Part shown: one piece after another, positions 9,369-13,596 of the stretch
How positions within the stretch are numbered: the first letter of the stretch is position 1
Layout: every line of letters starts with the position of its first letter
NCBI RefSeq assembly: GCF_947494055.1
Contig: NZ_CANLTR010000003.1
Location: 186,001 to 250,000 of the forward strand
Direction: 5' to 3'
DNA: 64,000 bases
Source: an uncultured Jannaschia sp.
GTDB taxonomy: Bacteria > Pseudomonadota > Alphaproteobacteria > Rhodobacterales > Rhodobacteraceae
Program-made: the position numbers and the translations under genes
Notes under the pieces: model-generated
Databases searched by the model: none
Told to the model about the DNA's origin: nothing
Seen by the model: only the letters and a program-made list of their open reading frames with translations

Positions 9369-10661
9369 ATGCAGGACATCGCCACGCGCGTCTGGAACCA
9401 CAAGTGGAAGATCGACCCGATCGTCCGCTCCCTGATCGACACCGACTTCTACAAGCTGCTGATGTGCCAGTCCGTGTTCCGCAACCGCCCGGACACGCAG
9501 GTCACCTTCTCCCTCATCAACCGCTCCGCCCATGTCCCCCTCGCGCGCCTCATCGACGAGGGGGAGCTGCGGGAGCAGCTCGACCACGTCCGCTCCCTGT
9601 CGCTGGCGCGCGGCGAATCCACCTGGCTTCGCGGCAACACCTTCTACGGCAAGCGCCAGATGTTCCGCCCAGATTTCATGGAATGGTTCGAGGCCCTGCG
9701 CCTGCCGCCCTACGATCTGCAGCGCGTGGGCGACCAGTACGAGCTCACCTTCGAGGGTGCCTGGCCCGAGGTCATGCTGTGGGAGATCCCGGCGCTGGCC
9801 ATCCTCATGGAACTCCGCTCCCGCGCCACGCTCGCCGATATGGGCCGGTTCGAGCTGCAGGTCCTCTACGCCCGCGCCATGACCCGCGTCTGGGAGAAGG
9901 TGGAGCGCCTGCGCAAGCTCCCTGACCTGCGCCTCGCCGATTTCGGCACGCGGCGGCGCCATTCTTTTCTCTGGCAGGACTGGTGCGTGCAAGCCCTGCG
10001 CGAGGGGCTGGGGAAGAACTTCGCCGGCACTTCGAACTGCCTCGTCGCCAAGAACCGCGACCTCGAGGCGATTGGCACCAACGCGCACGAGCTGCCGATG
10101 GTCTATTCCGCGCTGGCCGACGGCGATGCCGCGCTCGCCCGCGCGCCCTACGACGTGCTGGCCGACTGGCACGAGGAGCACGAGGGCAACCTGCGCATCA
10201 TCCTGCCCGACACCTACGGCACGCCCGGTTTTCTGGAGCGCGCGCCGGACTGGCTGGCGGGCTGGACCGGCATCCGCATCGATTCCGGCGACCCGGCCGA
10301 GGCGGCGGAGACGGCCATCGCCTGGTGGAAGTCCCGCGGCGAGGACCCGGCCACCAAGCTCATCATCTTCTCCGACGGCCTCGACGTGGAGCTCATCGAG
10401 ACCCTCCACACCCGCTTCCACGGCCGCGTCCGCCTGTCCTTCGGCTGGGGCACGCTGCTCACAAACGACTTCCGCGGACTGGCCCCGGAGGACGGGCTGG
10501 CCCCGTTCTCGCTGGTTTGTAAAGCCGTGGCGGCGGAGGGGAGGCCGACCGTCAAGCTCTCGGACAATCCCCGGAAGGCGATGGGACCGGAGCGGGAGGT
10601 GGCGCGCTACAAGCGGGTCTTCGGGGTGGGGGCGCAGGAAGCGTTGGAGGTGGTGGTTTAA
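9369..10661 (+). CDS. pncB: Nicotinate phosphoribosyltransferase
   Basis: A 430-residue enzyme that joins nicotinate and PRPP to give nicotinate mononucleotide with ATP hydrolysis. Family motifs include L-I-D-T-D-F-Y-K-L near the N-terminus, F-G-T-R-R-R-H-S-F, the active-site histidine in T-N-A-H-E-L-P-M and I-R-I-D-S-G-D. It follows pncA as the second step of NAD salvage. It is GC-rich like the rest of the chromosome (44 of 60 bases are G or C in the line starting at 10201), and composition drops sharply right after its stop codon, marking the left edge of the AT-rich island. Confidence 0.95.
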
Positions 10662-12960
10662 GAAGAAATGCCGCGTGCTGCTACTACTATTGGTTCAGAA
10701 GAGACAGATGGCGAAGAAATTATGTCGATAGCCTGTTTTCGAAGCTGACGGTTAGCCGCATAGGATCTTTTGCCTTGTCGCCCATTTTGAATTGCAAATC
10801 CATACCTTACAAGGAGATCGATAATTTCGGGGCAATCATGCGGCTGCGATGATCTAAGCCACGCAGAAGAGCGCTTTCAAGCCGTCCGCTTCCGGACTGA
10901 AGGTAAATTTTTCTAAGACTAACAATCAGCACTCTCAAGCCTAGCGGAAGTTCAGTGTCGAGAATATGATCCGCAGTCTCGAAAAAACCTCCAAAATCAT
11001 CGACATCGCAAGATACGAACTGATCTTGCGATAAATCGAACTCATTCAACCTGCCCTCTAAATAGCCGATAAGGCAGCCGCGAAAAACAACGTTAGAGTA
11101 AAATTCATCTGGTTGCGGCAGAGTCAGCCTTGAAATGATTGAGTCAACGAAGGTAAACTGCGCGCCATCGAACTCCTCGTTGGACAGATCAATATGGTTA
11201 ACTTGTATGCCTTGAAGGGTCAAACTAGGCTTACTACCCCCACCTCTACAGATCAAAACTGCTATGTCAAAAGCTACTTGATTTTTTTCTACCTGCATAG
11301 CGTATTCTAAGGCTGCTCTGACTACACCAGCATCCGTTTTCCTTACCTTCAAATCAGCATTTGACACAAGTAATCCTAAGTCAGAAACAGGTTCACTTAC
11401 GTCTTCGTGCTCCGATTGTAAGAACCCGTCGCCATACGGCGAGCGAACGTAATCTGAAAGTGCAATACCTGCACAAGCATTTTGAAAATCTTCATCAATA
11501 AAGCTGCGGTTTCCCTCCTGATCACTCGCTACTCCGAGCCCCGGAAGCCGCAAAAGTAAGTTCCTATCTTCTTCTAAAATAGAATTCCCAGTAATTGCTA
11601 GAAACACAGACTCAATCTCTGTCTGGGAGAAGCTCTTTTGACCGAGTGGCGTCTGGCGGGCTCGCACCGCAAGACCGCCTAGAAATCTTTTCATCGTTTC
11701 AGCGTCTACGCCTTCAGATTGACCCGCTTCACGAGAGAATATCATCTCCATAAGGTTCAACCACGTTGCGCCTCGCTGAATGTCTCCATCGGCCTGCTGT
11801 TCCGTAATTTTTTCAAGTATTCTAGACGATGCAAGATAGGTCAAAAGCAAAGGGCGGCTCGGTAGCCAGTCAGGTAGAGCCGAGCTTAGCCCTTTCTTTT
11901 TAAGAAAAAGCTCAGCTTGAGCTTCATCAAACGGTTGAAGCTCTAACTCGCAGAAGCTATCCGATTTAAGACCTAAAGCACTTCGAAGTTCGCTTCTAGA
12001 GTCGAAGTATCCATCTCGACCAACGAGTATAACGCCGCATCGTTGTGGTGTACCGTCAATCAAAGCTCGAACGCCTTGGTGAACACGTTTGCGGTATTCG
12101 CGAAGCTTTCTGATATCGCCAGTCCAGCCTCGTGTCGATATTTCATCAAAGCCGTCGATTAACAGATCGACGTAACCAGCTCCCCATGCCTTAACTAAAC
12201 CTTGAGGGTCAACTCCGATATTTCGAGCGTGGCGCTCCAGTATTTCTTCTGGGTAGTCTTGACTATTGTGTTGGCGAAGATTGATTGCAACCGGCGTTCT
12301 GAAATAGCTTCCTGTTCGTGAATCGTCCTTTAGCTTGAAGAACAGTTCACGTAAAAGCATACTCTTCCCCAATCCATAGCCTGATGTTACAATATATCTT
12401 TGACCTTGTTTTATATTTCGACTCAGTTCGTCCACTGAAATATTAATTTGGCTATCAATAGTTGAAATCGTAGGTTCTACATAATCGTTCCGTGGGATCT
12501 CGTAGCCTTTTTCAAAATGATCATAGACACTGCCAAAAGGTCGATTTGATCGGCACTGGATGTACTCTACGGTATCGAATAGCTTTCCCCGTAATGAACT
12601 AAAGCTTATTAACCAAACAGTATTAAAGCGTGCGTATTGCTTCGCTGCGTCTCTTTGATCGGCTGTAGGTTCCTGTTCAGTAACGACATACCCCTTAGCC
12701 ATATTACCTGCGGTTCTGCACTTTCGTACGAGATCGTGCGTTTTTTTGAGGTCATTCTCAGCTTTTAAGTTACTCTTTCCGGTTGTTGCTTCGACAACCG
12801 TGATAAAATCGCCGTTCCAAAACACACCGTCTCTTTCTCGGCCTCCAACATTTGTAGCGCCCTGCGTTTCTGAGCCCCCAAACAAGCGCCGGGCAACGCG
12901 AATGACTTCGTCCTCGAAGGCTTGATGGTCTGGATTTGTCATTTGCGCCTTCTTGTTCGT
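10662..12960. mobile_element. AT-rich accessory island carrying one gene
   Basis: Base composition changes abruptly after pncB and recovers in arfB. Hand counts give 29/60 G+C in the line at 10921 and 21/60 in the line at 12361, against 44/60 inside pncB. The segment holds a single long ORF on minus plus 145 nt of AT-rich non-coding DNA at 10662-10806. I saw no integrase, transposase, tRNA target or terminal repeat, so the mode of arrival is unknown. Confidence 0.7.
10807..12942 (-). CDS. Nuclease-like/NACHT STAND NTPase, probable anti-phage defence protein
   Basis: A 711-residue protein in four parts. Residues 1-130 resemble a restriction-endonuclease-like (PD-(D/E)xK/Mrr-type) domain with E11, R-D38-G-V and V-V-E51-A-T, where the usual lysine is threonine. 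Residues 165-400 form a NACHT-type NTPase: Walker A S-G-Y-G-L-G-K193-S, Walker B L-I-D263-G-F-D-E and a sensor-like V-G-R-D-G-Y-F. Residues 400-560 are helical, including F-I-D-E-D-F-Q. Residues about 575-650 look like degenerate pentapeptide repeats. Such signal-transducing NTPases commonly act in phage defence by sensing a phage protein and triggering an effector. AAGG lies 7 nt before the ATG. Composition and codon use are foreign to the flanks. The exact family is not assigned; defence is inferred. Confidence 0.8.
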   Translation of the reverse strand: MTNPDHQAFEDEVIRVARRLFGGSETQGATNVGGRERDGVFWNGDFITVVEATTGKSNLKAENDLKKTHDLVRKCRTAGNMAKGYVVTEQEPTADQRDAAKQYARFNTVWLISFSSLRGKLFDTVEYIQCRSNRPFGSVYDHFEKGYEIPRNDYVEPTISTIDSQINISVDELSRNIKQGQRYIVTSGYGLGKSMLLRELFFKLKDDSRTGSYFRTPVAINLRQHNSQDYPEEILERHARNIGVDPQGLVKAWGAGYVDLLIDGFDEISTRGWTGDIRKLREYRKRVHQGVRALIDGTPQRCGVILVGRDGYFDSRSELRSALGLKSDSFCELELQPFDEAQAELFLKKKGLSSALPDWLPSRPLLLTYLASSRILEKITEQQADGDIQRGATWLNLMEMIFSREAGQSEGVDAETMKRFLGGLAVRARQTPLGQKSFSQTEIESVFLAITGNSILEEDRNLLLRLPGLGVASDQEGNRSFIDEDFQNACAGIALSDYVRSPYGDGFLQSEHEDVSEPVSDLGLLVSNADLKVRKTDAGVVRAALEYAMQVEKNQVAFDIAVLICRGGGSKPSLTLQGIQVNHIDLSNEEFDGAQFTFVDSIISRLTLPQPDEFYSNVVFRGCLIGYLEGRLNEFDLSQDQFVSCDVDDFGGFFETADHILDTELPLGLRVLIVSLRKIYLQSGSGRLESALLRGLDHRSRMIAPKLSISL

Positions 12961-12981: not shown

Positions 12982-13404
12982 TTATCGAAAGCTGGCCGGG
13001 TTTCGAAGAGTCTTGATTTCCGCGCGCCGCTTCTTCGCTTCCAGCCGCTTGCGCTTCTGGTTGGCCGAGACGCGCGTCTTCACCCGCTTCTTCGGCGCCA
13101 CGCTCGCCGCCCGCAGGAGCGCCGCGAGCCGGTCGCGGGCGATCTCGCGGTTGCGGGTCTGGGAGCGTTCCTCGGAGACCTGGATCACCACCGCCCCGTC
13201 CTTGGTCCAGCGCCGCCCGGCCAGCCGCCGGAGCCGCGCCTTCACCGGGCCGGGCAGGGCCGGGGAGCGCTCCGCCTCGAAGCGCAGCTCCACCGCCGAG
13301 GACACCTTGTTGACGTTCTGCCCGCCCGGCCCGGAGGCGCGCACGAACTGCTCCGTCATCTCCCAGTCCTGGATCTCGATCTGCGGGGTCACGTGAAGCG
13401 GCAC
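12982..13404 (-). CDS. arfB: ArfB, alternative ribosome-rescue factor
   Basis: About 140 residues of an RF1-like hydrolase domain with the catalytic motif S-G-P-G-G-Q-N-V-N-K, a W-T-K-D-G-A segment, and the basic C-terminal tail (K-K-R-V-K-T-R, K-R-K-R-L-E-A-K-K-R) that enters the empty mRNA channel. ArfB releases peptides from stalled ribosomes. No ATG fits the family N-terminus (H-V-T-P-Q-I-E-I); the GTG at 13404 is the best choice, with GAGGA about 13 nt upstream. smpB, the trans-translation partner, also lies in this window at 19250. Confidence 0.85.
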   Translation of the reverse strand: MPLHVTPQIEIQDWEMTEQFVRASGPGGQNVNKVSSAVELRFEAERSPALPGPVKARLRRLAGRRWTKDGAVVIQVSEERSQTRNREIARDRLAALLRAASVAPKKRVKTRVSANQKRKRLEAKKRRAEIKTLRNPASFR

Positions 13405-13449
13405 GGGCGGAGCGACATCCTCGTCGGGGGCGGGGGGCGTGTGACACGG

Positions 13450-13482
13450 CCATAACACAGCCGTAACACAGCCGTAACACGC
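13450..13482. repeat. Three tandem 11-bp repeats upstream of arfB
   Basis: Three direct copies, CCATAACACAG, CCGTAACACAG and CCGTAACACGC, occur back to back 46 nt before the proposed arfB start. The spacing is about one helical turn, so they could be an operator array. They are too few and short for CRISPR. Confidence 0.6.
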
Positions 13483-13554
13483 GGCGAACACGGGGTTTGA
13501 GGGGGGTCCACGGGCCGCGTCAGGCGCCCGTCGGAGGCGCGGATCGGGGGCATC

Positions 13555-13596
13555 CGAAAACGAAAGAAGGCCGCTCCTCGACACGGGAACGGCCTT
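13555..13596 (-). terminator. Intrinsic terminator after the 18-codon ORF
   Basis: On minus, AAGGCCG (13596-13590), a 16-nt loop and CGGCCTT (13573-13567) form a stem followed by a T-rich tract (TTTCGTTTTC). A second hairpin, GGCGGGTC with GACCCCGCC (13611-13639), lies just before it. Together they end the short transcript that starts after yhhQ. Confidence 0.6.

Follow-up and report, generated by a model that had tools for sequence, protein, structure and literature searches.

A gene in the 64,000-nucleotide stretch of uncultured Jannaschia sp. DNA analysed here (the window) appears to encode a member of a family of horizontally transferred, single-gene anti-phage proteins of the NLR-related STAND type, a reading to which we give a probability of roughly 0.7; a draft error aside, the copy in the window is probably inactive. 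The preliminary description of this DNA had proposed a candidate phage-defence NACHT STAND protein of 711 residues encoded at 10807..12942. The open reading frame (ORF) was confirmed, on the minus strand (Table 1), and the proposal is supported by a NACHT match and by presence-absence variation among related genomes. The gene had also been described as standing alone in AT-rich DNA between housekeeping genes, which is correct as far as was seen: its G+C content is 0.459 compared with 0.692 for the whole window, the drop coincides closely with the gene limits, and the flanking genes are ones that we take, from their sequences, to be pncB and arfB. The source genome, a draft of 276 contigs, contains a single copy.

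The centre of the protein is occupied by a nucleoside triphosphatase (NTPase) of the NACHT type. The match of the window protein, its only one in Pfam at E<=1, scores 25.8 bits, slightly below the Pfam cut-off of 26.7, and among the 57 aligned members of the family, 56 have a NACHT match at E<=0.5, the best at 1e-12. The alignment (A2) comprises the window protein (P0001) and 56 of the 94 loci obtained from genome and viral scans, the other 38 being interrupted, cut, uncertain in their start, near-duplicates or NACHT-only; locus L016, at a contig end, is included without its N-terminus. The Walker A and Walker B residues listed in Table 1 are conserved in all 57 members, and thus the claim of a NACHT NTPase with both motifs intact stands, as does the NACHT/STAND match that had been suggested as a check on it. 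The same protein gave a single match in NCBIfam, far below the NCBIfam cut-off, and none in the PDB when used as a single-sequence query.

By its sequence, the N-terminal domain is a restriction fold by descent, with DNA cutting as a prediction. A profile of residues 1-150, compared by hhalign with 20 Mrr_cat domains drawn from genomes of the family, scored 92.7% in one direction and 93.9% in the other over 114 columns, while five controls (pncB and four different slices of this NACHT family) all scored 0.5% or less. In Pfam the window protein has no Mrr_cat match at its N-terminus; two of the 57 members match Mrr_cat at E<=0.5, and one relative, L077, exceeds the cut-off (21.8 bits vs 21). 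The restriction-like N-terminus of the preliminary description is therefore borne out by the profile-profile match and by L077. This last protein, from Rhodoplanes elegans (L077 2584-4956), has the clearest Mrr_cat match, weak matches to CARF-linked PD-(D/E)XK nucleases and a very long branch. Conservation in the domain is high, with E10 and D38 present in all 56 rows that have a residue there, E51 in 57/57, K60 in 56/57, D64 in 54/57 and K67 in 53/57, and a lysine or arginine at position 56 in 40 members. Where the Mrr motif [E/Q]-x-K is expected, all 57 members have E51-x-[T/S], E51 being equated with the Mrr [E/Q] by motif (the hhalign path was printed two columns off in that strand), and this replacement means that catalysis is not assured. 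The domain could thus be a catalytically dead restriction fold, with the protein binding DNA or a partner instead of cutting, as is also hinted at by weak matches to NA-iREase1 (PF22722, a NACHT-associated inactive REase) in seven of the 57 members (best E=0.019; none in the window protein itself). We regard this as unlikely: fixation of E10, D38, E51, K60, D64 and K67 across ten phyla would be unusual for a dead site, and there are precedents for a nearby lysine or arginine replacing the motif lysine, a role that K60, K67 or the basic residue at position 56 might play here.

The C-terminal region had been called pentapeptide-like, which may be correct. The PDB pentapeptide protein 2w7z was matched weakly and consistently, with E=0.0016 for the whole profile and 0.052 for the C-terminal profile, but the window protein has no pentapeptide match in Pfam. 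Behind this beta-helix-like region lies a further domain in which K, R and RGL residues are invariant (alignment A4), a putative winged helix, as suggested by Pfam GntR matches in six of the 57 members (best 6.6e-5, position in the protein not displayed). No GntR match was seen in the ten members scanned in detail, nor any winged-helix structure when the C-terminal profile was run against the PDB. The GntR matches could be taken to indicate a transcription regulator of the STAND type, combining an NTPase with a DNA-binding domain, in place of an immune protein, since STAND proteins such as MalT do regulate transcription. Yet GntR gave no match in ten records of phage, plasmid or viral origin in which a member is encoded, no partner gene was seen in common beside the four closest relatives, presence is scattered, the N-terminus is of the restriction type, members are carried by a phage and a plasmid, and the slot occupied in the window is shared with defence-type genes; on these grounds we find a regulator highly improbable.

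The window protein belongs to a family of proteins of about 760 residues that is unmatched by PADLOC and whose members come from ten phyla, a single phage, a single plasmid and viral contigs. Its distribution among close relatives is sparse. The gene is found in one of 20 genomes of the genus (the window's own) and in three of 394 genomes of the Rhodobacteraceae, again including that of the window, the others being Phaeovulum veldkampii (L002, 47%; also L006) and Actibacterium ureilyticum (L003, 29%; also L042), the two loci of each species having identical places and ORFs. This is the presence-absence variation that the preliminary description had suggested looking for; of the outcomes that it had named as speaking against it, a match to a metabolic or regulatory family and universal presence at the locus, neither was found. 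A housekeeping or metabolic family is ruled out by absence of the gene from all 19 other genomes of the genus. When an alignment of five sequences was run against species genomes, at least 96 relatives were found, of which 80 were kept (the last six weak and partial), and the same alignment gave 14 matches in viral contigs, ten long and four weak and confined to NACHT; with the window protein alone, two stretches of viral contigs matched a pattern and no relative was found. Among phage records, at E<=1e-5, there is one relative (Pseudomonas phage Haddon CDS0030, 31.8% identity, 99% covered), and among plasmids likewise one (Erwinia persicina, 25.8%, 92% covered), with 11 further short matches in the NACHT region at E up to 1.

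In a tree of 59 rows spanning Pseudomonadota, Actinomycetota, Nitrospirota, Acidobacteriota, Spirochaetota, Lentisphaerota, Planctomycetota, Myxococcota, Bacteroidota and Bacillota, the window protein groups with those of Phaeovulum, Sinirhodobacter, Azospirillum and the betaproteobacterium Massilia (support 100/100), and Haddon and the viral contigs are placed among proteobacterial rows. The Pseudomonadota label requires eight changes on this tree, at least six of them forced by starred branches, a count whose interpretation is limited by long branches and paralogy. All 52 full-length relatives (of 56) for which flanks of 4 kb or longer were available have a gene G+C lower than that of the flanks, the difference being ten points or more in 40, and the Massilia and Azospirillum copies sit in low-G+C DNA between high-G+C neighbours. 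No partner gene is shared alongside the four closest relatives; judged by eye, there is an integrase-like ORF near the Phaeovulum copy and a transposase-like ORF near that of Sinirhodobacter. No convincing repeats bound the insert in the window, a promoter scan found two promoter-like sites where 2.0 are expected by chance, and a terminator scan six terminator-like sites with 3.3 +- 1.9 expected. The NACHT gene has been horizontally acquired and travels as lone cargo. That the gene is carried by phage Haddon, by a plasmid and by viral contigs could also mean that the protein is a superinfection-exclusion module, defending the element that carries it rather than the host, but no complete element surrounds the window copy or the four closest relatives in the stretch read, and the mechanism would be identical in either case. 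We consider such a module distinctly unlikely, and prefer a defence protein of the host.

Some individual copies deserve mention for their surroundings. In phage Haddon (L004 13749-16049) the gene lies a few small ORFs away from the endolysin, in an 8-kb stretch that is matched by 98 phage records, of which only Haddon itself covers most. On the Erwinia persicina plasmid (L005 11875-14112) it is flanked on one side by a separate pentapeptide-repeat gene and on the other by an integrase with a toxin-antitoxin pair, and contig4 of Cellulomonas sp. HZM (L028, L029) carries a pair of oppositely oriented copies, separated by about 29 kb and with identical match statistics.

The window copy itself is interrupted at its 3' end, a feature absent from the preliminary description. 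Its frame departs from the family alignment after residue 705, and all 56 aligned relatives extend at least 45 residues past the column where it leaves; the four closest are 758-760 residues long, compared with the 711 of the window ORF. Directly downstream, in a different frame, the DNA encodes the remainder of the conserved C-terminal domain (P0004, Table 1), with 42% identity over 52 residues (E=8e-14) to the Azospirillum relative and 47% over 43 residues to that of Massilia. In the assembly as given, the frame break falls inside the C-terminal domain. Either the window copy is inactive or the draft is mis-assembled at that point, one of which is probably the case; with a draft of 276 contigs, draft error and true mutation are indistinguishable here. 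Because this copy is probably not intact, the term single-gene system used in the preliminary description is safer for the family, in which relatives hold intact copies, than for the window gene, whose frame stops early. An even chance should be given to the possibility that the window gene is a decaying remnant without present function, the family being a defence system and this copy not. The uniform continuation of the 56 relatives and the survival of the lost C-terminal part in another frame fit a remnant, and against this are the intact NTPase and N-terminal motifs, the presence of only one interruption, the possible assembly error, and the fact that a shortened protein might still work. 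At seven other loci (L010, L043, L052, L053, L061, L074 and L079) the best open frame spans only part of the match, and broken copies may be no rarity in this family.

The stretch behind pncB is a slot that holds varied, often defence-type genes in related genomes, the NACHT gene being one occupant. Low-G+C DNA starts directly behind pncB in 17 of the 19 other genomes of the genus (L127, on a short contig, among them); in L126 pncB is followed by a gene that looks by eye like dnaE2, with no drop in G+C, and in L137 the low-G+C genes begin about 2 kb further away. The distance from pncB to arfB is at most about 2.1 kb in 13 of the 19. A typical cargo has one or two ORFs, mostly unrelated between genomes: among the 13 intervals bounded by arfB, only L123 and L133 share ORFs (BLASTP 1e-10), and the cargoes of L132 and L136 are similar by eye. 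Scans of the cargo with Pfam (20 proteins, none with an integrase match) and with PADLOC gave the matches listed in Table 1, where HEC and PDC are presumably the PADLOC names for candidate systems. Eight of the 19 genomes have a PADLOC match at or below 1e-20 (one counted by homology) and four a weaker one, all to be read as candidates and not as proven systems; for the other seven (L120, L121, L126, L127, L129, L131 and L136) no match was counted or there was no cargo to scan. The ParA-like partner in L136 is probably the second of the two PDC-M28B matches. Two genomes of other genera, L160 and L163, seem to carry cargo behind pncB too. A literature search, covering mostly open-access papers, gave no mention of a pncB defence slot or of this NACHT domain order.

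The genes on either side of the slot have unusually G-rich ends. In the 18 genomes of the genus with cargo, including the window (10617-10661), 134 G and 9 C (0.94 G) were counted over the ten final wobble positions of pncB, compared with a G fraction of 0.36 over codons 160-430, numbered backwards from the end of the gene. With the two carriers of other genera added, the ratio is 147 G:9 C in 20 carriers vs 47:31 in ten non-carriers (Fisher p=3e-10, which is descriptive, like any p-value here, as the slot was noticed after inspection and the rows share ancestry). Genomes outside the genus were sorted by the G+C behind pncB before the gene ends were seen, and L167 (genome about 0.53 G+C) was at first set aside and later counted as a non-carrier. 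Wobble identity in the pncB tail is 0.79 among carriers, little above the 0.70-0.71 of the gene bulk; when genus carriers are compared with the two carriers of other genera it is 0.76, with non-carriers outside the genus 0.47, and the latter have 0.62 among themselves. At the other side of the slot, the last 15 wobble positions of arfB in 12 genomes hold 129 G and 23 C vs 670:391 further in, and the stop codon is TAG in nine of these genomes; L125 was left out of the count, and L124 (8:7) and the arfB copy in the window (2:3 over its final ten positions) are exceptions. A general G bias at 3' ends is absent over 39 window genes, pncB included (168 G:173 C), where one other gene has 8:1.

A peptide-pattern search of 19 genomes found none of the displaced pncB ends that an integrase would leave beyond the cargo; in base alignments, L121 alone rises above its shuffles (14 vs at most 13). 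Allowing up to one mismatch, the genome has no other copy of the 15-base motif of the pncB end. Since the bias is found at the pncB end wherever cargo follows and no displaced gene end was seen, this is not the pattern of an ordinary integrase attachment (att) site. The G-rich ends could possibly result from homologous recombination between shared gene ends, from a recombinase acting in trans, or from strand-biased mutation beside foreign DNA. It is tempting to speculate that the gap is reserved for a single defence cassette at a time, being emptied and refilled with no integrase of its own by means of the matching G-rich 3' ends of pncB and arfB, which are transcribed towards each other, with the NACHT family as one cassette, a proposal that we put forward as tentative and on balance doubtful.

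Table 1. Features of the NACHT gene and its flanks in the window, and cargo found behind pncB in other genomes of the genus.
Feature	Position	Strand	Remark
NACHT ORF	10807..12942	minus	711 residues, ATG start; Mrr-like domain, NACHT NTPase, beta-helix-like region, start of C-terminal domain
Mrr/PD-(D/E)XK-like domain, residues 3-121	12580..12936	minus	hhalign to Mrr_cat and conservation; E10, D38, E51, T53, K60, D64, K67 conserved
NACHT domain, residues 189-348	11899..12378	minus	Pfam PF05729, E=1.1e-5
Walker A core, residues 190-194	12361..12375	minus	G190, G192, K193, S194 in 57/57
Walker B, residues 259-267	12142..12168	minus	D263, G264, D266, E267 in 57/57
Pentapeptide-like beta-helix region, about residues 575-655	10978..11220	minus	Approximate limits; 2w7z profile match, F-x-x-C-x-I repeats
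First part of conserved C-terminal domain, about residues 660-705	10828..10965	minus	Alignment A4, in ORF frame
Remainder of conserved C-terminal domain	10661..10819	minus	53 residues (P0004), frame different from NACHT ORF, directly downstream
pncB-type gene, upstream slot flank	9369..10661	plus	Matched in 20/20 genus genomes
arfB-type GGQ protein gene, downstream slot flank	12982..13584	minus	Matched in 20/20 genus genomes; start codon uncertain
L122 cargo			NYN; PADLOC HEC-09 6e-41
L123 cargo			PADLOC HEC-07 2e-162; homologue in L133 counted by homology, not itself scanned
L124 cargo			Fic; PADLOC SoFic 3.6e-21
L125 cargo			PADLOC HEC-02A/B 1.6e-136, 5e-32
L134 cargo			PADLOC PDC-M02A/B 2e-52, 1.5e-128
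L135 cargo			PADLOC capP-like 2e-23
L138 cargo			PADLOC PD-T4-10_B 6.7e-21
L137 cargo			Weaker PADLOC match, PDC-M24B 5e-17
L128 cargo			Weaker PADLOC match, nitrilase part, 5e-14
L130 cargo			RelA_SpoT; weaker PADLOC match, PDC-S33 1e-9
L132 cargo			Weaker PADLOC match, PDC-M28B, 39 residues only
L120 cargo			RTX/Calx-beta; no PADLOC match at 1e-5
L121 cargo			No PADLOC match at 1e-5
L129 cargo			Schlafen AlbA_2; no PADLOC match at 1e-5
L131 cargo			P-loop; no PADLOC match at 1e-5
L136 cargo			HEPN-like protein without PADLOC match at 1e-5; ParA-like partner

The defence function proposed for the family, as suggested by its domains, its distribution and the slot, would follow the common logic of STAND proteins, for which ATP-driven oligomerisation is general. 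A resting monomer would be held off by its C-terminal part, to which a phage product or a host component altered by the phage would bind; ATP-dependent opening of the NACHT domain would then lead to oligomerisation, and the oligomer could unite the Mrr-like nuclease domains, with the result that DNA is cut, phage growth is stopped and the cell is lost. What the sequences demonstrate is domain homology, motif conservation, the patchy and mobile distribution, and the slot; sensing, oligomerisation, DNA cleavage and defence itself are inferred. Several observations weigh against it. The PADLOC models, whose use on the window protein the preliminary description had suggested, matched it with no family at E<=10, Avs included, and in the ten members seen in detail the PADLOC matches are partial, mostly short, and located at the P-loop or the nuclease motif; to these must be added the altered nuclease motif and the interrupted frame of the window copy.

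Among known systems, the Avs (AVAST) NTPases have the same effector-STAND-sensor logic, but no Avs model matches the window protein, and Avs2 is matched by one of the 57 members (E=0.0047). Membership in MADS as Mad8 was considered and rejected: 26 of the 57 members match, and the five matches with coordinates seen span about 40-90 residues around the P-loop only. The Mrr-family restriction endonucleases are homologous to the N-terminal domain over its length and differ in their [E/Q]-x-K motif, as opposed to the E51-x-[T/S] of the window family, and in the fusion of the latter to NACHT. According to the paper describing them, the clade 6 proteins bNACHT25/32 likewise join a PD-(D/E)XK-type N-terminus to a central NACHT in a single protein of NLR-related layout, degrade DNA on infection and require the nuclease residue (PMC12169576); by that description they have NCH1 helical domains, where the window family seems to have a beta-helix-like region and a further conserved domain. 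Mrr_cat-STAND proteins are named in the defence hotspots of P4 satellites (PMC9122126), and these nuclease-STAND proteins, with an Mrr_cat or BpuSI_N effector, also combine an Mrr-type effector, a STAND NTPase, C-terminal repeats and carriage as mobile cargo, the parallel being drawn by domain description only. By analogy of layout, the window family may work like these published nuclease-NACHT/STAND proteins. Its newness is judged against PADLOC and by description, the systems of DefensePredictor (PMC13092281) standing outside the sequence comparison.

If this reading is right, the bacterial proteins related to NLRs would gain a widespread NACHT family that has an Mrr-type domain with a changed active-site motif and lies outside the PADLOC models used. 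The slot behind pncB, some of whose occupants (L121, L131) are unmatched at E<=1e-5, offers a simple and testable place in which to seek still unknown defence genes.

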